From the NCBI GenBank assembly GCA_030682385.1, contig JAUXOG010000010.1, positions 1 to 44,524 on the forward strand: DNA of 44,524 nt, written 5' to 3'. The notes beneath the pieces were generated by a model that was given only the letters and a program-made list of their open reading frames with translations, had not been told where the DNA came from and ran no database searches. Position numbers and translations under genes: made by a program. This document shows positions 17,447 through 40,199 of the stretch, piece by piece. This DNA is from Bacteroidota bacterium. GTDB taxonomy: Bacteria > Bacteroidota > Ignavibacteria > UBA10030 > BY39. The number at the start of each line of letters is the position of its first letter. Positions within the stretch are counted from its first letter, which is position 1.

Positions 17447-17549
17447 CTACCGTGAATACTTCCTAAGATCGAAACCTTTGTTGCTTCCTGTTTTCCGCAA
17501 TGCAGCATCCATTTTTCTGATATCGTTTCTATCTGTGCGCAAAACAGGT
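17447..17549 (-). pseudogene. Duplicated 3' fragment of the neighbouring polymerase gene
   Basis: Read on the minus strand this encodes PVLRTDRNDIRKMDAALRKT and then a further 13 residues before a TAG. The first part is almost the same as the C-terminus of the polymerase homologue at 17829-20210. At the DNA level 17488-17549 matches 17837-17898 over 62 bases with about five differences. It may be the original 3' end of the polymerase gene, displaced when the palindrome cluster entered. Confidence 0.6.
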
Positions 17550-17836
17550 AAATATTTCTAGATATATTTTCTTTTTGCACAGATGATGAGCCTGCTCGGG
17601 GACAAGTCCGTAGGACTTGTATGTCTGTAGCCGTGTAAGGAAATAATGTATTTCCACTCCAGCGGAGTGGTATGTTCCAATAGAACATTCGACCCCCGCC
17701 TACCAAAGTCCCAAAAAGAGGGACGGCGGGCAGGCCGCTGGGGTCGGGTTCATTACATCTTTTCCAATATCTACAAACATTTGACTCCTAACGGCCTACG
17801 GCTCTTCGAGCCGAAGGCTCGTAGAGAGTCATAAGC
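17550..17836. repeat. Cluster of short palindromes between two copies of the polymerase 3' end
   Basis: A gene-free block of ~290 bases dense in inverted repeats: ACAAGTCC-GTA-GGACTTGT (17602-17620), CCACTCC-AGC-GGAGTGG (17654-17670), ATGTTC-N5-GAACAT (17672-17688), a GC-rich CCCGCC..GTCCC/GGGAC..GGCGGG hairpin (about 17694-17731), and a nested palindrome around CGGCTC-TTC-GAGCCG (about 17782-17831). It lies between convergent clpX and the polymerase gene, so some hairpins could serve as bidirectional terminators. The density and the flanking 62-bp direct repeats suggest an insertion. Confidence 0.65.
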
Positions 17837-20210
17837 CTGTCTTCAGCGATGCAGCACCCATTTTTCTGATATCGTTTCTATGTGTGCGCAAAACAGGTGT
17901 ATTTTGCTTTCGCATTTTACCGATTTTAAAAATCTCGTTTAGTTTCTTCATATCATACCCAAACGGCAGCAGTAAAGTTTCCACTGCTTTCAGCGCAAGC
18001 TCTGTGTATTTTTCTATGTCGTAACCGTCTTCGAACGCATACAGCGAAATCGGCTTGGCTTTTTCCGGTTTGCGCTTGCCCGATTGGTCAATCAGTATAT
18101 ACTCGATTCTCTCGCCCGCCGCAAGGTGAACTCCCGATTCTTCAATCATACGCGTAACTACCGCATTAACGCTGTTGTTGGAATACTCGCTTGCTTCCTG
18201 CGAAATGTTCCGCCGTATTACAAGCTCCATCGGGTTAACGGTGCCGGCTTGCAAGCGTTCGATATACTCACGTGCGACTTCCAAAACTTCAGGCACAAGG
18301 GCAGCAACTTCAGCAACCGATTGCGCCGGCGAAAGTTTTTCCAACATCGCTCCTTGCATCGTCTTAATAAATTTCGGCGTGTCTTTTCTGCGTGTTTCTA
18401 TACCACGAATTTTTACTTCACCGCTTCTGTAATATCCGACATACCTGTTTGCAGTTGGAAGCAGGGCATCCATCTTCGAGGCAGGATAAAGTATCCAGTT
18501 GTAAATTCCTTCGAGCGAAATATCAATCCCGACTTTTGAATCTATCTCTTTACACAAATCTAAGTAATCGTTTTCTGTAGCTCCCGTTTTTTTCAACCAC
18601 ATACAATCAATGATCGCGTGCAGAAGTTTGAAGCCGCGGTTTTCGGCAATTTCCTTTGCCTGAAGAATTGCATCACGCGAAAAAGCATTCACGGATTCGT
18701 GCGCCTCAATCTTACCGAAGCGCGCATTCTTGTAACCCAAATAGCCAAAGCAAGTTACAAGCATCCACTTCAGCGCCGACTGGCGGTTATCGTAAACATG
18801 CCATAGTGGGTTGCCTTCGTGCTTGAGTTGCTGTTTTTTTTGTTTGTAGTAAGCCCGCTTTTCCACAACTGCGCGGAGTGTTGCAGGCACAATGCCTTCG
18901 CGTCTGCGACAAATTCTGTAATCAAGTTCGGGAACTGTTCTTGCCGAACTTCCTGAAGGCTGAGTATCCAAAGAGTTGATAACCTTCGGGAGGTTATCAT
19001 TTCCATAGCAGCATTGGCAGTTAATTGTTTCGGGTGAAACATTATGCCGCACCATAATCGTCGGATACATCGAGACAAAATCGAGTTCAGCCACATCCTC
19101 GTGGTATCCGATTAGCGGCTGAAAAATTAATCCGCCGCGGTCGGCAAGCAAAAGCGTTGCCGCCGATTTGAAATCTTCCGGCTCACGCTTCTTCGACGGA
19201 ATCAAAATGTTGTTACGGTATGCCCACGAAAGTTGAATAGAAGAAAGTCCTGTGCCTATTGATGCACGTGCCTGCCGCTGAACCGGAATTTGAGTAATGC
19301 GTGAAATGTCGTACAAACCGTCGAGGAAAGATTCAGCGACTGTAAAAGAGTTGTGCACATCGATATGCCATCTGCCTGCAAGTTCGAAGGCGCCATCTTT
19401 GTGAACAATTTTTCCGTACTGAAAGTAACTCGATTCTTTCGTCGTAAAAAATCCGACACTTCTGTCGCGGTTGAACAAAAGGGGAACCTTATGTTTTTTT
19501 GAAAGTGCGGCAAGAGTCGGCATAAGCGAAGCATCGCCGTATTCTGTTAAAATTACATCGGGGTCGAAGCGGTTGAAATGCCAGTTAAACGCCTCCAGAA
19601 GTTCTACAGGATTTTGTTGTTCGAGCAAATATGAATTATCTTCGTACGATATTTCGAGTTGAATTATTGAATGGTATTTCGGCGGAAGGAAATTATTAGC
19701 GTTGCGGATATTCATTATTGCAAGGGGAGGCAGTGTGTATTCGAATGCTTCGCGGCTGTCCGACAAGTTAAATTCAACCAACTTTCCTTTTTCGTTTATT
19801 CGATACTCGCCGAATGCAAGCGGAAAAAGTTCTGCGTGGTAAAGATAAAGTTGAGCAGGTAAAATATTAGAGTCGTAGAAAGCGAACGGCGGGAAATATT
19901 TTTCAAAAAACCAAACTGCTTCACGGAATTTCATTGTGTCATGAACGTTCACTTGCAGAACGTCCCATTCTTCGTTCGAATATAACTCGCATTTCTTTGT
20001 CCGATGTGTAGAAACCGGAATTTGCAAGCGTGTTGCTAAAACTTCAGCCCGCTTCATATCCGATTGGTTGAGATACAGATAAAACGACGGTGCAAAATCG
20101 GCGTAACAGGTGTGTTTTACGCCTTCTTCATCTATCAACCAGATTGTTATTCCTTTATTAGAAGGATAGAGGTCGAAGAGCCAAGCGGTGGTATTTATAG
20201 ATTTGTTCAT
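17829..20210 (-). CDS. B-family DNA polymerase homologue, probably catalytically inactive
   Basis: A 793-residue protein of the PolB superfamily. Palm motif A is DFVSMYPT (D377-T384), motif B is the KWMLVTCFGY segment (K481 on), and a Cys-rich insert (C398, C400, C401, C434) lies between them. Motif C, normally YxDTD, reads IIDCMW: D535 is kept but the second aspartate is methionine (M537). In the N-terminal exonuclease-like region the first acidic motif is also altered (QLEISYE instead of DxE), while the DPDVILTEYGD segment is kept. Inactivated PolB homologues (PolB2-type) are known in archaea and some bacteria, and I place this protein with them by motif pattern. It is the last gene of a minus-strand unit with the 102-residue and RecA-like proteins, 156 bases downstream of the former; that gap holds a hairpin, so coupling is not certain. 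A scaffolding role in repair or replication is inferred. Confidence 0.8.
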   Translation of the reverse strand: MNKSINTTAWLFDLYPSNKGITIWLIDEEGVKHTCYADFAPSFYLYLNQSDMKRAEVLATRLQIPVSTHRTKKCELYSNEEWDVLQVNVHDTMKFREAVWFFEKYFPPFAFYDSNILPAQLYLYHAELFPLAFGEYRINEKGKLVEFNLSDSREAFEYTLPPLAIMNIRNANNFLPPKYHSIIQLEISYEDNSYLLEQQNPVELLEAFNWHFNRFDPDVILTEYGDASLMPTLAALSKKHKVPLLFNRDRSVGFFTTKESSYFQYGKIVHKDGAFELAGRWHIDVHNSFTVAESFLDGLYDISRITQIPVQRQARASIGTGLSSIQLSWAYRNNILIPSKKREPEDFKSAATLLLADRGGLIFQPLIGYHEDVAELDFVSMYPTIMVRHNVSPETINCQCCYGNDNLPKVINSLDTQPSGSSARTVPELDYRICRRREGIVPATLRAVVEKRAYYKQKKQQLKHEGNPLWHVYDNRQSALKWMLVTCFGYLGYKNARFGKIEAHESVNAFSRDAILQAKEIAENRGFKLLHAIIDCMWLKKTGATENDYLDLCKEIDSKVGIDISLEGIYNWILYPASKMDALLPTANRYVGYYRSGEVKIRGIETRRKDTPKFIKTMQGAMLEKLSPAQSVAEVAALVPEVLEVAREYIERLQAGTVNPMELVIRRNISQEASEYSNNSVNAVVTRMIEESGVHLAAGERIEYILIDQSGKRKPEKAKPISLYAFEDGYDIEKYTELALKAVETLLLPFGYDMKKLNEIFKIGKMRKQNTPVLRTHRNDIRKMGAASLKTGL

Positions 20211-20248
20211 TATTCACAAAACGTTACTATATAAATATTATCAGTCAG

Positions 20249-20376
20249 GAAACTGTTCCGCCAGAGGCGGATAAATAAAACAGTTAGCTTATTATTTTTT
20301 TTGTTAGTAACCCACGACCTGTTAAGTCGTGGGTTACTGAAAAACTAAATGAGAATATTAACCGTTTTAACGGTTT
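20249..20376. repeat. Composite palindromic repeat, copy 1
   Basis: Three parts in order: AAACTGTT...AAACAGTT arms (20250-20285) with an inner CCGCC-AGA-GGCGG hairpin; a perfect 13-bp stem AGTAACCCACGAC / GTCGTGGGTTACT (20306-20338); and AACCGTT-TT-AACGGTT (20360-20375). The last palindrome overlaps the 3' end of the 102-residue gene and supplies its stop codon. The same arrangement recurs near 23.5 kb and, split by an IS, at 25.97-27.77 kb. Confidence 0.75.
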
Positions 20377-20675
20377 ATAACCCCGTCAACAATATCAATA
20401 GGACTTCCGGCTACAAGCTCAATTCTTTCTGTCTTTTCCATCCTCTCTTGCAGTATTTTTATCAATTTCCTCTGTTCAATTAGCATCGAGATGATGATGC
20501 TTTCGAATGGGATTGTTCGCATAGCATAAAAATTTTCAGCAAGATGAATTCGTGCTGAGCGGAAAAGGTCGTCGAATATCTCTTGGTCGTCCTTGCGAAG
20601 TCCGCGTTTGTATTTCGACCAGCTTTCAATCTCGCTGTCGATTATTCTTGTGAATGTTGGGAGTGTGCGTCCCAT
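20367..20675 (-). CDS. Small helical protein between RecA-like and PolB-like genes
   Basis: 102 residues, predicted almost all alpha-helical, charged, with a possible coiled coil near the end (LIEQRKLIKILQERMEKTER). No family recognised. The ATG at 20675 is preceded by AAGGA at good spacing, which supports this start although it lies 50 bases inside the upstream RecA-like gene; the long overlap argues for coupled expression and a shared task. Its last codons lie in a dispersed palindrome (AACCGTT type), so the C-terminus may have been altered by repeat insertion. By position it could be an adaptor between the ATPase-like and polymerase-like proteins; that is inference. Confidence 0.75.
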   Translation of the reverse strand: MGRTLPTFTRIIDSEIESWSKYKRGLRKDDQEIFDDLFRSARIHLAENFYAMRTIPFESIIISMLIEQRKLIKILQERMEKTERIELVAGSPIDIVDGVINR

Positions 20676-21285
20676 AATTATTGTTCCTTATTTGTTTTAT
20701 ATCGTTGCTGTCTTCTAATAGCTGGTAAATTATATCGGCGTTTTGTTTAAGTATGTCGAAAAACTGGTTCCGTTCTTTCGGTAAAACTTTTCGTTCTTCG
20801 GATGCGAGTAAAATTGAAATGCCTTTTTCTTTCATTTGTTTCAACTGCACAACGATTCGTTGAAGCATATTTTTAACCTGATAAAATGGAACCTGTTCGT
20901 CGTAAAATGTATCCAACAATCCGAATATCATAACGGTATTTGAATTAATTTTTTTCAGGAATTGTTCGAGGCGGTTATTTATTGCCGCTTCCATTTGATA
21001 CGATGTGAAGCCGCGGGAAATGTAAATCCGTTTCAGCAAGATATCCGGATTTATGCGCCGCTGACGTGCGAAGTTGGTAATAGTATGCACATCGAAACGG
21101 CAGCATCCGTCAACAACGGCTATTGATTTACCTTTAATTAAGGCGTGTGAAGCAAGCACTAGCGATAGCGGAAAAATGCGTTTGCTTCCGTAAATAAAAA
21201 AAATACTGCCCGCCGGCAAATCGGTGAATTCGTCAGTGAACGCCGCTTGCGTAATTGTTTGGCTATGTACAATGATGTTGTGCAT
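20626..21285 (-). CDS. RecA/RadA-superfamily protein with degenerate P-loop
   Basis: 219 residues. The segment AVVDGCCRFDVHTITNFARQ, followed by DILLKRIYISRGFTSYQ, matches the pattern of Rad51/RadA-type core domains (beta strand ending in an acidic residue, helix, then 'ldniyvaraynteq'). The place of the Walker A loop reads IYGSKRIFP (31-39) instead of GxxxxGK[ST], so nucleotide binding is doubtful. A Walker B-like strand ends at D125 (VMIFGLLD). It is the first gene of the minus-strand unit and is driven by the promoter/operator just upstream. Its combination with an inactivated polymerase recalls ImuA-type RecA-like accessory factors, but no direct homology is claimed. No clear Shine-Dalgarno site is visible before the ATG. 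Confidence 0.75.
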   Translation of the reverse strand: MHNIIVHSQTITQAAFTDEFTDLPAGSIFFIYGSKRIFPLSLVLASHALIKGKSIAVVDGCCRFDVHTITNFARQRRINPDILLKRIYISRGFTSYQMEAAINNRLEQFLKKINSNTVMIFGLLDTFYDEQVPFYQVKNMLQRIVVQLKQMKEKGISILLASEERKVLPKERNQFFDILKQNADIIYQLLEDSNDIKQIRNNNYGTHTPNIHKNNRQRD

Positions 21286-21311
21286 TATAAAACTGTTTTT
21301 GTTTCTATGAA

Positions 21312-21340
21312 AATATACGACAAAAATGTCGTTTAGTCAA
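21312..21340 (-). promoter_or_regulatory. Sigma-70-type promoter with palindromic operator in its spacer
   Basis: On the minus strand TTGACT (21340-21335) is followed, after exactly 17 bases, by TATATT (21317-21312), about 27 bases before the ATG of the RecA-like gene. A perfect inverted repeat ACGACA-N4-TGTCGT (21317-21332) occupies the spacer and touches the -10 box, so a dimer bound there would block RNA polymerase. A second palindrome, ACAAATTTGT (21351-21360), lies just upstream. The layout is that of a LexA-like or other repressor-controlled promoter; the regulator's identity is not known from this window. Confidence 0.7.
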
Positions 21341-21495
21341 GAAGTGTAAGACAAATTTGTTTTAGGAAAAAAATGCTGTGGTCTTTTGTCTGGAAGTCGT
21401 GGATTTATAAGTATTTAGCGAAGGGTAGGTAAACAGAAAGGGGAAGTAAGTGGATTAATTTTATAACTTGTTGGGGGTGAGAGGAATCTCTAACA

Positions 21496-26023: not shown

Positions 26024-27712
26024 AGACTGTGTGATAATTAAAGAACGAAACTGAAATTAATATACAAAACTGTATGAAGAAAGAAAAATTATTGTTAAAT
26101 TTGAGGAGAATATTTTAAGACAAATAGACAAGAAAGCAAAATGAATTTCATCAAACCTGAAGATAGATACCAGATCGGTATATTTAACAGTTTAGACGAT
26201 ACTATATCGAGAGATAATCCTATAAGAATAATAAATTTAGTTGTAGATTCTATAGTAGATAACAACAGAGAAAAATTAATTAAAGAAAAACCAAGCGAAG
26301 TTGGTCCACCATCGTATCACCCAGCTGCGATGCTGAAGTTATACTTGTATGGGTATTTTAATCGTATAAGTAGCTCACGAAGATTAGAAACAGAAACGTA
26401 TCGTAACAACGAGTTGATCTGGTTATTAGGGAATTTACACCCTGATCATTGGACAATATCAAATTTTCGCAAATGTAATGGGAATGAGATTAAGTTTGTG
26501 ACAAAGAAATTCAGAGAGTTTTTAGTTGGAGAGGGATATATAAAACTGGAAAAGGTGGGAATAGATGGCAGTAAGATAAAAGCTAATGCTAAGCGTGATA
26601 TGTTAAGCATAAAAAAGATAAATAAGCGATTAGAACGAATGGACGAAAAGATAGAAGAATATTTAAATAGGTTATCAAAGAACGACATAAGTGAAGATAT
26701 TATAGAGGAATTAGAAGACAAAGAAGGAGAAGTCGATATAAATCAGGAATTGTTGGACAAGATTATCAAGTTGCGTAAAGAAGTTGAAGAATTACGTAAC
26801 CATAAGCAATTAATGGAGGAACTCGGATGTAAGTATTATAGCGAGACCGATCCTGAATCAAACTTAATGAAAAGCAGAGATGGTAAAGTGCCTGCATATA
26901 ATGTCCAGATTGTAGTTGATGAAACTAATAGGATGATAGTCGACAGTGAAGTAAGTCAGGAATCGAATGATGTAAGGCAGCTATCAGCGATGATAGATTC
27001 TCTGAAAGAAGAAGTTGGGAAAATTCCTAAAGAGGCATATGCCGATAAAGGTTACTATAATCCGGATATGATTGAAGAGGTAGAGAGAGAACACGGTATC
27101 GAAGTATATGTGTCAATACCGGAAACAAAAAAATCAGAAGAAAATATTATATTTACTTATGATAAAGAAAAAGACGAATACGAATGCTCTGGAGGTAAAA
27201 GATTAAAGCTTGAGCAAAGGAATAAAAAGAAGAGAAGTTCATATGCAAATATGTATAGAGGCGAACATTGTTCTGAGTGTGAGTTGAAGAGTGGCTGTAC
27301 AAAGTCAATTAAGGGACGAACTATACATAGGTATCATAATCAGGGTTTGCGAGATAGTTACGTGAAAAAGATATTGTCGGTAGAAGTACAAGAAAAGATG
27401 AAAATCAGAAAAACACTGGTAGAACATCCGTTTGGCACGATACGATGTTTGATGGGAAAAATACCCTTGTTGTTACGAGGTGTATTTAAAGTTTCTATAG
27501 AAATTAACCTTTACACTACAGTATATAACTTAAAGCGATTAATAAACGTAGAAAGAATTGATAACCTGATAAAAAGGATTCAAACATATAGCTGGAGAAC
27601 AGTTGGACAAATAAAGTATGAACCAACATAGTAGTATATAACTTATTAGAAACTAAAATTTTATAAAGAGATAATTGTTAACAATATGTTTTACAGAATT
27701 ATAACACAACCT
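26024..27712 (+). mobile_element. IS1182-type insertion sequence
   Basis: About 1.69 kb. Ends: AGACTGTGTGATAATT at the left; the reverse complement of the right end is AGGTTGTGTTATAATT (13 of 16 identical). CTTAAG flanks both sides (26018-26023 and 27713-27718) as a 6-bp target duplication. Removing the IS and one copy restores the perfect palindrome CCCACGACTTAAGTCGTGGG, so the insertion is in the exact centre of a host hairpin. Because the target is itself palindromic, the ends could shift by a base or two. Confidence 0.85.
26141..27631 (+). CDS. IS1182 family transposase
   Basis: A 496-residue DDE transposase with an N-terminal DUF772-type domain (SYHPAAMLKLYLYGYFNRISS and the following LETETYRNNELIWLLG), catalytic D142 (GIDGSK), D302 (YADKGYYN) and E428 (VEHPFGTI), a coiled-coil stretch (~165-230), and a Cys-rich segment CSECELKSGC before the last catalytic motif. 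It is full length with no frameshift, so the element may be active. Base use is more AT-rich and lysine codons are more frequent than in neighbouring genes. Confidence 0.95.
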   Translation: MNFIKPEDRYQIGIFNSLDDTISRDNPIRIINLVVDSIVDNNREKLIKEKPSEVGPPSYHPAAMLKLYLYGYFNRISSSRRLETETYRNNELIWLLGNLHPDHWTISNFRKCNGNEIKFVTKKFREFLVGEGYIKLEKVGIDGSKIKANAKRDMLSIKKINKRLERMDEKIEEYLNRLSKNDISEDIIEELEDKEGEVDINQELLDKIIKLRKEVEELRNHKQLMEELGCKYYSETDPESNLMKSRDGKVPAYNVQIVVDETNRMIVDSEVSQESNDVRQLSAMIDSLKEEVGKIPKEAYADKGYYNPDMIEEVEREHGIEVYVSIPETKKSEENIIFTYDKEKDEYECSGGKRLKLEQRNKKKRSSYANMYRGEHCSECELKSGCTKSIKGRTIHRYHNQGLRDSYVKKILSVEVQEKMKIRKTLVEHPFGTIRCLMGKIPLLLRGVFKVSIEINLYTTVYNLKRLINVERIDNLIKRIQTYSWRTVGQIKYEPT

Positions 27713-35595: not shown

Positions 35596-36597
35596 ATGTT
35601 TTTATCAAGGCGTTTGAACGGAGTGTATTATCTATGGTTTGTAGATGAAGGCGGTCGCAAGCGGAAGGTATCAACGGGCTGTAAGATGAAAGCCGATGCT
35701 TTCAAGTTTCTAAAGTCTTACAATCAGGCTGAGGCTGAGCGGAGAGCTAAACTCAAAACTATTTCCTTGAATGAATTTATGCAAGAGTTTCTTAATTACT
35801 CAAGCGGTGTTCATACATTAAAAACTCAAGCTTGTTTTAAAAATGCTTTCCGGGAGTTTATAAGAATAATCAGCGATAAGCAATTAAATCAAATATCCAT
35901 TAAAGATATTGAGAGTTTTTTAAGTCAAAAGAAGTTAGAAGCGAGTGAGTGGACGGCAAGGAAATATTTCATCTCTTTGAGTTCAGCATTCGAGCGAGCG
36001 AGGTTATGGAATTATCTCGAAGTCAATCCGTTCCGTAAGGTCGAGAAGCCGAAAACTCCTGAGCTTATACCGTTATTTTTAACAAAGCAAGATTTTAATT
36101 TATTACTCACTGCAATTGTAGAGAATGATTTTCGGGAGTTGGTTATCATTGCAGCTTATACAGGTTTGCGGTTGGGTGAATTGCTTTCATTGGAATGGAG
36201 CGATATTGATTTTAAGAAGCGGGTGCTTCAGGTTCGGAATAAGGAAACATTTACAACGAAGTCGGGAAGGAATAGACTTTTACCGATGGCTGAGGTTGTG
36301 TATCATACCTTGATGCAACGTAAAGAGAGTTTGACTTCAGAGCATTCCCTTATATTTAACAGCAAGCCTCAATACGTTACTAAAAAATTCAAGCGATATG
36401 TTCGGGCTTCGGGACTCAATGAGCGTTTACACTTTCACAGCTTGCGACATACCTTTTGCAGTTGGTTGGCTGAGGCGGGTGTTAGCTTGTATGCTATTAG
36501 CAAACTTGCCGGACATTCACAAACTAAGACAACGGAGATATATGCACATTTGCAAAGCGACTCAATGCACGGGCTTGTCAATGATGCTTTCAATTAA
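35596..36597 (+). CDS. int: Tyrosine recombinase (integrase) of the tRNA-Ser element
   Basis: 333 residues. An N-terminal DNA-binding region includes a short arm-binding-like domain (FLSRRLNGVYYLWFVDEGGR) and a SAM-like core-binding domain (~55-150). The catalytic domain has R192 (TGLRLGELL), H281 and R284 (HSLRH), H307 (LAGHS) and Y316 (EIYAHL). All catalytic residues are present, so integration and excision should be possible. AAGGAG lies eight bases upstream of the ATG. Its place just inside attL is standard for tRNA-targeting elements, and the GGTAACCA repeats lie directly in front of it. Confidence 0.95.
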   Translation: MFLSRRLNGVYYLWFVDEGGRKRKVSTGCKMKADAFKFLKSYNQAEAERRAKLKTISLNEFMQEFLNYSSGVHTLKTQACFKNAFREFIRIISDKQLNQISIKDIESFLSQKKLEASEWTARKYFISLSSAFERARLWNYLEVNPFRKVEKPKTPELIPLFLTKQDFNLLLTAIVENDFRELVIIAAYTGLRLGELLSLEWSDIDFKKRVLQVRNKETFTTKSGRNRLLPMAEVVYHTLMQRKESLTSEHSLIFNSKPQYVTKKFKRYVRASGLNERLHFHSLRHTFCSWLAEAGVSLYAISKLAGHSQTKTTEIYAHLQSDSMHGLVNDAFN

Positions 36598-36854
36598 GAT
36601 AATCAATCCTGAGCGATATATGGGTGAAATAGGATACTTTAAATTGGTTGACAAGGTTATATAAACACATATTTTGCAAATTTAATTTTTCTTCTTGCAT
36701 TAGTTTGAAAATAGTTTAAATTGTAGTAAGACATAATTTCAGTATGATGCGAATTAAGAAAATATTATCCTTCACTCGTTCCCTTGTAAAAGGGGGAAGC
36801 CGGTCGCACGGTATTGAAACGGGTGGAGGGATTTTTATTTTATGAGGTGAACGG

Positions 36855-37292
36855 ATGAGACTAAGAAAAGAAATCGTTGAGGTTCTGAACATAGCAAGAG
36901 AACACGGTCCAATGATTCAAGAATACAGAGAACAGTTTGAAGCTATGAGGCGGGCTGGTATGTTTGAACACATTGAAGCTATAAGGCGGGCTGGCATATT
37001 TGAAGATGAAGAAACAAAAGAAGTCAAGGAAATTCCTTCAGTAGCAGAGCCAATAAATAAGAAACAAAGGGATTACAAACTCAAAAGTTGTAAAATTATT
37101 TGTGATAATTTAGGACTAAAAGCGGGTGAAACAGTTTCACGAGAGACTAAGTTTGAAATAGCAAAAAAATTAGATTTAGATGTGGGAGAATTTAATAATT
37201 TCAAATCAGGAAAATCAAATTCTTATCAAGAAACTTCAAAAATGGTTGCTGAATTAGGATATAAAAAGCGAGGTGCTACAAAATATAATTGA
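36855..37292 (+). CDS. Putative regulator of the element
   Basis: 145 residues, not assigned to a family. The N-terminal half is helical and charged with an internal tandem duplication (EAMRRAGMFEHI / EAIRRAGIFEDE; ~36 bases duplicated at 36940-37010). The C-terminal half (~72-145) looks like a small helix-turn-helix-type domain (FEIAKKLDLDVGEFNNFKSG). A dimerising coiled coil plus a DNA-binding domain fits a transcriptional regulator, which satellites usually have at this place; this is inference. A GAGGTG site precedes the ATG. The ~255-base gap between int and this gene has no gene; it is AT-rich and may hold the promoter. Confidence 0.6.
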   Translation: MRLRKEIVEVLNIAREHGPMIQEYREQFEAMRRAGMFEHIEAIRRAGIFEDEETKEVKEIPSVAEPINKKQRDYKLKSCKIICDNLGLKAGETVSRETKFEIAKKLDLDVGEFNNFKSGKSNSYQETSKMVAELGYKKRGATKYN

Positions 37293-37314
37293 TGTTTTTA
37301 GCTTGTTTTTCGAT

Positions 37315-37369
37315 GTTACCGATGTTTCTATATAAAAATTAAAAATAATTTTACGGAAACATTGGTAAT
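37315..37369. promoter_or_regulatory. Long inverted repeat around an AT-rich core (possible origin or operator)
   Basis: GTTACCGATGTTTC (37315-37328) is matched by GAAACATTGGTAAT (37355-37368), 12 or 13 of 14 positions pairing, with a ~26-base almost pure A/T core between. It lies upstream of the replication genes and downstream of the putative regulator. A replication origin or a regulator-binding site would both fit. Confidence 0.45.
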
Positions 37370-37444
37370 ACTTTTTTGACATATTAGATTGTATCAGTTT
37401 GAAAGAACGGATATAATTCAAATATTAACCTGAAAAGAATTTTA

Positions 37445-37488
37445 AAAGCCGAAGGTGAACTTATCCGTTCATACCTTTGGCTTTTTTT
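37445..37488 (+). terminator. Hairpin terminator just before the 138-residue gene
   Basis: AAAGCCGAAGGT and ACCTTTGGCTTT arms (one G-U pair), 16-nt loop, followed by T7. Only ~16 bases separate it from the next ATG, which makes it either a terminator of the regulator transcript or an attenuator in the leader of the replication genes. Confidence 0.75.
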
Positions 37489-37504
37489 ATTTATAGGAAT
37501 AGTT

Positions 37505-37921
37505 ATGAAAGATATTTCTCTGACGCCTACAAATAAGCCGGGCGTTTTTCAAGTTATGCTTTCGGACGGCTGGACAGTTAAACAAATTGGAACTTGGAAC
37601 GAAGCAAATTGCACGTTTATTACACAGCGAAACGAAAAAAAACATTTACATTTAAAGTCGGGAAGTCTTGCCGTCAATGAGATGGTGCTGGAGCTACCGG
37701 GCTTGCGATGGGTTTGTATAATGTATGAGGATGCAAGCGGTGGTAAAAGGGAATTAAAAACAAGCCGGGAATATATTCTAAAATTCGGCAAGCGGGCTGC
37801 CTTTGCATCTACATCATACGAGCCTCAGCTGTTTCTTGAATTGAGTCAGTGGTCGATGGAGCGGGCAGTCCGTTTTGAGAAGCAGCTAAACAGTCAACAA
37901 TCATTGTTTGAGGTTGCTTAA
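37505..37921 (+). CDS. Hypothetical protein of the element
   Basis: 138 residues, no family recognised. The N-terminal ~100 residues appear beta-rich (FQVMLSDGWTVKQIGTWNEA, ELPGLRWVCIMYEDASGGKR), the last ~35 helical (LFLELSQWSMERAVRFEKQL). AGGAA precedes the ATG. Its stop overlaps the ATG of the next gene by one base (TAATG), so it is translationally coupled to the winged-helix replication protein and is likely to act in replication or its control. Confidence 0.6.
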   Translation: MKDISLTPTNKPGVFQVMLSDGWTVKQIGTWNEANCTFITQRNEKKHLHLKSGSLAVNEMVLELPGLRWVCIMYEDASGGKRELKTSREYILKFGKRAAFASTSYEPQLFLELSQWSMERAVRFEKQLNSQQSLFEVA

Positions 37922-38358
37922 TGGAAGGCTGGATAAAACTTCATCGGTCTATTGAAGAAAACGAAATGTATTTTGCTGATAGATTTACACGAATGCAAGC
38001 TTGGATTGACTTGCTTTTATTGGCAAATCATAAAGCAGCGGTCGTATTTATACGAGGTATCGAGTTACGATTGAAGCCGGGTGAGTCGTTCCATTCGTGG
38101 TCAACGTTAGGCAAACGCTGGAAGTGGAATCGCAAGACAGTTGGAAGGTTTTTGAAATATCTTCGAAACAAGCAAATGATACACTACAGAACAGCCTACA
38201 AAATTGGCGTTATTACTATTGTAAAATGGGAAAACTATCAATCCAATGGTGCAGTAGTGGACTACAAAAGGGACTACAAAAGGGACTCTAACAAGAATGT
38301 TAAGAAGAATAAGCCTGAAAAAAAATCAAATCGAATGAGTGGTTTGCGATGGCTTTGA
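37921..38358 (+). CDS. Phage-type winged-helix replication initiator-like protein
   Basis: 145 residues. The start GWIKLHRSIEENEMYFADRF, the helix WIDLLLLANHK, the strand LKPGESFHSWSTLGKRW and the KTVGRFLKYLRNKQMI / VITIVKWENYQ wing match the N-terminal domain of many phage replication-organiser proteins. These load the helicase or open the origin. The C-terminal tail is short, basic and contains an exact DNA tandem duplication (DYKRDYKRD), so the origin-binding or helicase-interaction extension of longer relatives is missing. About 100 bases without a gene follow before the helicase gene. Confidence 0.75.
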   Translation: MEGWIKLHRSIEENEMYFADRFTRMQAWIDLLLLANHKAAVVFIRGIELRLKPGESFHSWSTLGKRWKWNRKTVGRFLKYLRNKQMIHYRTAYKIGVITIVKWENYQSNGAVVDYKRDYKRDSNKNVKKNKPEKKSNRMSGLRWL

Positions 38359-38459
38359 TACGTAGATTGAATTATCGGGCGGTTTATTTTATATGGTGCG
38401 GGCTTCCGCTGAAATACAAAATTATAATGCTTCTAAAGAAGTTATGGAAAGGATTTTAG

Positions 38460-40199
38460 ATGAAATATTTTGAATATGCAATCGGTGGGCTGGTCAATAG
38501 GAATCAGATTATTGAAGCTGATAAGTTCAGTTTGAACGGTCAACGGTCGGAATGTTATAAGTCGATGTTTTACTTTGATGATGGTTTGAAGATTTACGTT
38601 GATAAGACAAAGTCGGTGTCGGGATACAGCGGGCAGCATTGCAGCGATTATCTTTATTTCGATTTTGATGGTTCGGATTTGCACGAGGTTAAGGCTGAGG
38701 TCGAGAAGTTTATCAGATTCCTTGAGGTCGAGTATATGCCGATTGAATATGTTTCAATTTTCTTTTCTGGAAACAAGGGCTTTCATTTATCTATACCATT
38801 CAAGGCAATATCAGAGCCGGAATTTTCGATTGAGTTTTATAAAACAGTTAAGAAAATGGTGTTGAAGTTGACTGCGGGCTTTAAATTTGTTGATGCTGGA
38901 ATATACCAAATTAACCGGCTGATGAGATTAGAAAATACTATCAATGCAAAATCAGGGTTGTATAAAATACCGATAACCTTTGAGGAGTTAGTTTCCTTAT
39001 CGGTTGCCGAGATACAGGAAGTTGCGAAAACTCCGAGAGAGTTTGAGCAATACGAAGATGAAATAAAGGAAATTTCGGGGCTTCGGGAGTTATACCTTGA
39101 ATGCAAGCGGGTTGAGACTGAGCCGAAGCAATCAAATGTAAATGAGTTCACAAATATTTTGCAAGGTGTAGCCGAAGGCAATCGAAACAATGCAGCGGTG
39201 AAGCTTGCGGGTTTGTTCGTAGCAAAAGGATTCGATGAAACTCTCACTCTTGTAATGCTAAAACTTTGGAATCAAAATAACAATCCAAAATTAAGTGAGA
39301 ATGAAATTCAGGGAATTGTTAGAAGTTGCTTTCGATATAAGAAGGTAGATGCAATACCTGTTGTGTATAGCATCGGGTCCGGGTTCAATGAATACAAACA
39401 GTTCGTTTCAACCTTTGATGCGGTCAAGGTTAAACTTGGCTTTGAGCCGATAGATGAGAAGATAAGGGGACTCGTTCCCGGCGAGGTAGCCGTTATACTC
39501 GGACGGACTTCTGTCGGCAAGAGTGCCTTCCTTCAGTGGATTGGTTTAAACTATGCTAAACGCACAAAGCAGCCGGTCTTATTTTTCTCTCTTGAGATGC
39601 CTATCAGTTCGGTTATAGAGAGAAGCATTCAAATATCAACCGGTGAGTGCGGGTATGATGTGGAGCGGTTCATCAAGTCGGGAAATGTAAATTTTGAGCA
39701 AGAGGTCAAAGCTGAATTACAAAAGATTCAATCATTTTACAGTGTAACGAAATCGGGTCTTAACCTGGAGCAGATTAAAAACATAATACAGCACAGTGAA
39801 GAAAATATTTTCAAACAAAAATGCGGTTTAATTCTCATCGATTATCTCGGACTCATTGCCGGCGGCGGTCGGGATTTATATGAGAAGACTTCAAATATCG
39901 CAAGGGAGATTAAAACTATTGCAAAAGATATAAACACTCCGATAATATACCTGAGTCAAATCAACCGGAAGTATCAAGGCACGGACGAGCTGGACATATC
40001 GGCAGCGAGGGACTCAGGAGCAGTAGAAGAAGCAGCGGACTTTGTATTTGGTTTGAGAAGGGTTGATGCTGAAGATACAGAGGATTCAATCAAGCTGGAG
40101 TTAGGGGTCTTGAAAAATCGTAGAGGTTCAACCGGCAAGATTGAGATTTATATGAATAAAAAAAGTTTAAACTTTACAACGGATGGTAAACCATTTTAA
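38460..40199 (+). CDS. Primase-polymerase / DnaB-type helicase fusion
   Basis: 579 residues with two enzyme modules. Residues ~1-180 are an archaeo-eukaryotic-type primase (AEP/PrimPol): DxD at D68/D70 (YFDFDG), the SGNKGFH motif ending at H109, the third acidic motif at D145 (FVDAG), and NRLMRLENTIN. A PriCT-like helical linker (GVAEGNRNNAAVKLAGLF) follows. Residues ~320-579 are a RecA-fold DnaB-type helicase: Walker A GRTSVGKS (348-355), FFSLEMP, Walker B LILIDYLGL and the IIYLSQINR sensor. A self-sufficient replication protein able to prime and unwind is common in satellites, small plasmids and phages. It is probably directed to the origin by the winged-helix protein. AAAGGA lies six bases before the ATG. 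Confidence 0.9.
   Translation: MKYFEYAIGGLVNRNQIIEADKFSLNGQRSECYKSMFYFDDGLKIYVDKTKSVSGYSGQHCSDYLYFDFDGSDLHEVKAEVEKFIRFLEVEYMPIEYVSIFFSGNKGFHLSIPFKAISEPEFSIEFYKTVKKMVLKLTAGFKFVDAGIYQINRLMRLENTINAKSGLYKIPITFEELVSLSVAEIQEVAKTPREFEQYEDEIKEISGLRELYLECKRVETEPKQSNVNEFTNILQGVAEGNRNNAAVKLAGLFVAKGFDETLTLVMLKLWNQNNNPKLSENEIQGIVRSCFRYKKVDAIPVVYSIGSGFNEYKQFVSTFDAVKVKLGFEPIDEKIRGLVPGEVAVILGRTSVGKSAFLQWIGLNYAKRTKQPVLFFSLEMPISSVIERSIQISTGECGYDVERFIKSGNVNFEQEVKAELQKIQSFYSVTKSGLNLEQIKNIIQHSEENIFKQKCGLILIDYLGLIAGGGRDLYEKTSNIAREIKTIAKDINTPIIYLSQINRKYQGTDELDISAARDSGAVEEAADFVFGLRRVDAEDTEDSIKLELGVLKNRRGSTGKIEIYMNKKSLNFTTDGKPF

Follow-up and report, generated by a model that had tools for sequence, protein, structure and literature searches.

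A bacterial PolB2 mutasome operon predicted to be controlled by a CI-type, LexA-like repressor specific to one Ignavibacteria-type order

The DNA analysed in this study is a 44,524-nucleotide stretch (called the window below) of contig JAUXOG010000010.1 from the Bacteroidota bacterium assembly GCA_030682385.1, and it carries a three-gene operon encoding a RecA-like protein, a small helical protein and a B-family DNA polymerase. Our best reading, to which we give a probability of roughly 0.8, is that the operon encodes a bacterial PolB2 mutasome, a translesion complex that would be inducible by DNA damage through an order-specific repressor with a CI-type helix-turn-helix (HTH) and an S24 peptidase domain, that is, a non-canonical LexA. 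The operon itself is of a known kind, being a member of the published bacterial iRadA-PPB2-PolB2 mutasome family (Makarova 2014, Timinskas 2025), and the part for which the open-licence literature gave no description is its predicted control by an order-specific CI-type repressor via a box unlike those reported for the Bacteroidetes. The window genome comprises 3.38 Mb in 140 contigs, and the named assemblies closest to it are from uncultured Ignavibacteria/Bacteroidota; 100 related genomes were surveyed, and "the order" denotes the taxonomic order of the window genome throughout. Gene identity, gene order, motifs, the fold of iRadA, the conservation of the operator, its sharing with the repressor gene, its pairing and the co-occurrence of repressor and operator were all computed here.

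The polymerase has the B-family fold with its palm motifs, and in the PDB alignment its segment LLHAIIDCMWLKK falls on VIYGDTDSLFVKK of solved PolB structures, so that motif C is changed from DTD to IID, with the first Asp replaced by Ile and the second kept. The initial annotation had read this motif as DCM, a register off by two residues in which the retained second Asp was taken for the first. Because DTD is replaced by IID and not by DCM, the second Asp of motif C and the Asp of motif A (ELDFVSMYP, intact) both remain. All 57 aligned relatives have I[I/V]D followed by Cys in motif C, an invariant motif A Asp, and a motif B in which Asn has become Val while Lys is invariant. The altered first exonuclease motif was correctly noted before (QLE instead of DIE); the motif II Asp is lost as well, and in the relatives the Exo II Asp is Leu and the Exo III Tyr is Arg in 57/57. 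This combination of IID, a retained motif A Asp and broken exonuclease motifs is the PolB2 sequence signature (cf. PMC11791011). Sulfolobus Dpo2, a PolB2 sharing this IID, is a robust polymerase that lacks proofreading and extends mismatched ends and lesion ends (PMC8764526). Since only one of the three catalytic carboxylates is lost and an IID polymerase is active in Sulfolobus, the earlier description of the polymerase as an inactive pseudo-enzyme is unsupported, and by homology to Dpo2 the complex encoded in the window is predicted to be produced in response to DNA damage and to act as a translesion extender. No beta-clamp motif was found in the window PolB2 or iRadA, which does not speak against membership in the PolB2 mutasomes because only some members have one. 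By a loose pattern, QxxLF-like ends occur in 20/60 PolB2 and 1/54 iRadA relatives (C-terminally in PolB2, e.g. at loci L057, L061, L075 and L079), a bias opposite to that described in PMC11791011. Three IMG/VR contigs (L257-L259) also encode PolB2 relatives. A viral origin of the operon was considered and rejected, since these best IMG/VR matches are only 32-38% identical and so give no evidence for a phage-borne operon.

The RecA-like protein is iRadA, which on the strength of its structural model has a RadA/Rad51 fold without a P-loop. Its sequence similarity to RadA is only a trace and it lacks the RadA N-terminal domain, while its AlphaFold model (pLDDT 86) has Dmc1/RadA as best Foldseek matches (E 5e-10). 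The Walker A motif is absent, as had been noticed at the outset, with YGSKRIFP at the P-loop position. Relatives with an intact DTD in the polymerase or a Walker A in its partner had been named beforehand as a refuting test; there is no such polymerase among the 57 aligned, and GK[S/T] stands at the P-loop position in none of the 54 iRadA relatives, the lone GxxxxGK[S/T] match lying near a C-terminus and away from that position. The small protein begins with the MGRT N-terminal arm that defines PPB2 (PMC11791011), and 53/55 relatives start with MGR (MGRT in 45, MGRN in 5, MGRL in 3); the other two starts may stem from an ATG-preferring choice of start codon. The overlap of exactly 50 bases between the iRadA and PPB2 genes, proposed earlier, is confirmed by the coordinates of the open reading frames (ORFs).

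A PolB2 match, weak in one case, is present in 75/100 related genomes, and all three genes occur in the order iRadA-PPB2-PolB2 in 53/60 fetched loci. Four of the remaining seven are limited by contig ends and three have split genes, so that the genes stay together, a point that the initial annotation had proposed to check, in 53 of the 56 testable loci (those of the same order with enough upstream sequence). Of the genomes with split genes, two have iRadA and PPB2 adjoining a CI-type repressor gene; the third has them on the PolB2 contig, about 7 kb away from the polymerase gene. The proposal of a damage-response complex thus stands as far as a polymerase, a RecA-like protein and a small partner are concerned, because the genes stay together, the motifs are lost in all relatives and the operon appears to be under a damage-type repressor; its pseudo-enzyme part, for the polymerase, does not.

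Control of the operon by an operator, which had been proposed from the palindrome (operator 1 in Table 1), gains support from the core that the operon promoter has in common with the promoter of a damage-type repressor. Operator 1 lies 32-47 bases 5' of the first ATG of the operon, and the window genome has no second exact copy of ACGACA-N4-TGTCGT. Its exact core GACAWWWWTGTC is found at three places in the 3.38 Mb: in the operon promoter, in the promoter of the S24 repressor gene, which carries AAGACATATATGTCTA, and once inside an ORF. Matches with up to two mismatches were not above the control in this genome (103 vs 210), and for this reason only exact core sites were used; the one-mismatch sites inspected there (L004-L009, L012) precede no recognisable damage genes. 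The 16-base pattern with an A/T spacer has 64 sites in 47/100 related genomes, compared with 2 for a reversed control, and many PolB2 operons across the order are preceded by it at a distance of 9 to 600 bases. Among loci in repressor-bearing genomes the core is found within 400 bp upstream of the first gene in 24/41, as against 0/13 loci in genomes without the CI-type repressor, and eleven permuted palindromes gave 0/41 matches in the same promoters (within 250 bp). PolB2 genes that have parted from iRadA-PPB2 have an operator of their own, at -49, -55 or -71. In PolB2 and repressor promoters alike, exact sites have a partner 30-33 bp away. This spacing accounts for 44/51 site pairs within 400 bp; after shuffling the mean was 13, made up almost entirely of exact pairs left intact by the shuffle. 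As 30-33 bp corresponds to three helical turns, the pairing suggests that two repressor dimers would bind one face of the DNA.

The repressor gene lies elsewhere in the window genome. Its product matches Pfam HTH_3, Phage_CI_repr and Peptidase_S24 and has the residues expected of a self-cleaving S24 protein, VPAG, GASM (GxSM) and VLKKV (LKK); it is predicted to cleave itself with stimulation by RecA. Identity with canonical LexA was rejected: against the lexA equivalog TIGR00498 the protein scores 61.8 bits, below the cut-off of 110.95, and matches in the S24 part only. Strong orthologues are confined to the order, similarity in the wider phylum falling to about 1e-14, and 28/30 orthologues have the core within 250 bp upstream. 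Across whole genomes the repressor and the exact operator co-occur (table 42, 17, 5, 36; Fisher 4e-9, without correction for relatedness). In several genomes that lack the CI-type repressor, iRadA is immediately preceded by a canonical LexA. One genome has two PolB2 operons (L062, L091), of which one is associated with the CI-type repressor and carries the operator, whereas the other, a divergent copy, stands beside a canonical LexA and has none.

These observations are consistent with a simple model in which we infer repressor binding, cleavage, induction and polymerase activity. In the undamaged cell the repressor would sit on two operators three helical turns apart, blocking transcription of the operon and silencing its own gene in the same manner. 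After damage, RecA filaments would trigger its self-cleavage and the operon would be induced. In the resulting complex PolB2 would be joined by a single inactive RadA-like subunit, iRadA, and by the small helical PPB2, expected as a trimer; following published models, iRadA would stand in for a neighbouring RadA protomer while the MGRT arm of PPB2 enters the cleft, and PolB2, lacking proofreading, would extend primer ends past lesions, by homology. We consider it somewhat better than an even bet that, in more general terms, a phage-CI-like repressor replaced LexA in one Ignavibacteria-type order, acts at paired ACGACA-N4-TGTCGT sites and governs a minimal damage regulon, of which an archaeal-derived B-family mutasome is the chief product. 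In this species, at strict motif stringency, that regulon would contain the repressor and the PolB2 operon only.

Several points weigh against the reading of a damage-inducible mutasome under this repressor. About 40% of the operons in repressor-bearing genomes have no exact site within 400 bp, some of them with inserted genes and a site further upstream. The GACAWWWWTGTC pattern was picked after the first two sites had been seen, and the co-occurrence statistics ignore shared ancestry. At the expected cleavage site most of the family-6 repressors inspected read Gly-Gly (VPGG) where the others read Ala-Gly; the VPGG orthologues L341, L349 and L355 belong to one family of the order. The monomer model of PPB2 is poor (pTM 0.52) and a fold search with it gave no match. 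To our knowledge, the activity of a bacterial PolB2 has never been measured, activity being known from Sulfolobus Dpo2, and bacterial PolB2 mutasomes are known from sequence and models only.

Three other explanations need to be weighed with these points. PolB2 could be a genuine pseudo-enzyme within a complex that serves replication as a structural or regulatory accessory rather than as a translesion polymerase; the loss of the first motif C Asp and of the motif B Asn in every relative fits this, as does the designation of the group as inactivated in earlier papers (PMC4104785), but the invariance of the motif A Asp, the second motif C Asp and the motif B Lys and the robust activity of Dpo2 with the same IID (PMC8764526) make it improbable. 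It is very unlikely that some other regulator recognises the palindrome while the HTH-S24 protein runs an unrelated switch, for example that of a prophage: although five genomes, some of them incomplete, have the exact 16-mer without a repressor match, the repressor's own promoters hold the same paired palindrome, the operator is absent from all 13 loci in genomes without the repressor, and in the genome with two operons the copy next to the CI-type repressor has it while the copy next to canonical LexA lacks it. That the PolB2 genes are decaying remnants maintained by hitch-hiking would account for the last residues of the window PolB2 running into a dispersed repeat and for the copies that are fragmented or frameshifted in a few relatives, yet it is hardly credible given the open frames, the invariant motifs and operators conserved across the order, even in split loci.

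Table 1. Features of the operon, its promoter and the putative repressor gene
Feature	Position	Strand	Remarks
iRadA, RadA/Rad51-fold, first gene	21,285 to 20,626 (20626..21285)	-	219 aa; AlphaFold, Foldseek, Walker A position
PPB2 (arCOG07300-type) small helical partner, second gene	20367..20675	-	102 aa; N-terminus MGRTLPTFT
PolB2 (bacterial G2 group), third gene	17829..20210	-	793 aa; Pfam DNA_pol_B 6e-39, PDB alignment, 57-row family alignment
Operator 1, perfect palindrome ACGACA-AAAA-TGTCGT, ACGACAAAAATGTCGT	21317..21332		sole exact copy of the 16-base pattern in the genome
Operator 2, imperfect copy, AAAACAAATTTGTCTT on the - strand	21348..21363		31 bp from operator 1; pairing as in relatives
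Promoter-like hexamers flanking operator 1	-35-like TTGACT 21340-21335; -10-like TATATT 21317-21312	-	weak consensus match
CI-type HTH + S24 repressor gene, elsewhere in the window genome	C130:27420-28070		only S24-type repressor of the genome

The hexamers around operator 1 are no better than chance and were not used as evidence. Roughly the last 25 codons of polB2 (17829-17925) fall within a dispersed repeat that also occupies 17487-17559 and has 10 matches in the genome counting itself; a same-genus relative has a different PolB2 C-terminus at the repeat position. Elsewhere in the window, and by reading only, a tyrosine-recombinase-like ORF (333 aa) is followed by a 579-aa helicase/primase-like ORF at 35596-40199, possibly a small integrative element, and a transposase-like ORF of 496 aa lies at 26141-27631.

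Operator-bearing promoters in relatives also precede genes for DUF72, a Y-family polymerase, a radical-SAM protein, DUF5131 and the repressor itself. DUF72 is listed among PolB2 neighbours (PMC11791011), and error-prone polymerases and the radical-SAM repair protein SplB are among SOS genes (PMC8565304). At L143 and L147 the operator stands upstream of the DUF5131 gene and of another gene, suggesting that these may be further damage-regulated genes. The product of the second gene resembles what we take to be a three-Cys-motif partner (there is no Pfam match). The conserved operator and its likely repressor provide a testable handle for predicting when the complex is made and which genes, such as those for DUF72 and the Y-family polymerase, act with it. 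The pair predicts an SOS-type control rebuilt around an archaeal-derived polymerase and, if this is true, adds one more SOS box and one more lineage to the LexA replacements. A published description of the ACGACA-N4-TGTCGT box or of CI-type control of PolB2 was not found in the open-licence literature.

The three-gene association was first noted in PMC4104785 and the mutasome operon was described in PMC11791011, so that neither the arrangement of the genes in bacteria nor the lexA neighbour is a new finding. With the operon of PMC11791011 the one described here shares the three genes, their order, the MGRT arm, the IID motif, the lost P-loop, a repressor gene that is often next door and DUF72 neighbours. 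In contrast, the published neighbour is lexA (PMC11791011, PMC4104785) and the one found here is a CI-type S24 repressor; neither an operator nor Ignavibacteria nor an S24/CI-type repressor is named in the main text of PMC11791011. The Sulfolobus Dpo2 operon (PMC8764526, PMC7390963) has the same IID site and encodes a damage-inducible mismatch extender, as is predicted for the window PolB2, but it is archaeal, and the neighbouring regulators in archaea are of the Orc1/Cdc6 type (PMC11791011). The non-canonical LexA of Bacteroidetes (PMC8565304) is, like the predicted repressor, an autoregulated protein with a CI-type HTH and S24 domain that controls translesion polymerases, a likeness in described features; the repressor described here differs in its ACGACA-N4-TGTCGT sites paired at 30-33 bp, which match none of the published Bacteroidetes boxes, and in belonging to an Ignavibacteria-type order. 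HdiR of Lactococcus is likewise an S24 LexA-like repressor with a tiny regulon, consisting of itself and an error-prone polymerase, but it controls UmuC and not PolB2, needs Clp processing and groups with streptococcal phage repressors (PMC8565304). The parallel with ImuA/ImuB drawn in the initial annotation holds as an analogy and not as kinship. The ImuA-ImuB-DnaE2 cassette also places an atypical polymerase and a RecA-like partner under SOS control (here predicted), but its proteins are of the Y and C families, without PolB2 or PPB2; membership of the window operon in such cassettes was rejected, as its polymerase is of the B family and its RecA-like protein is RadA/Rad51-like, and the resemblance is one of function.

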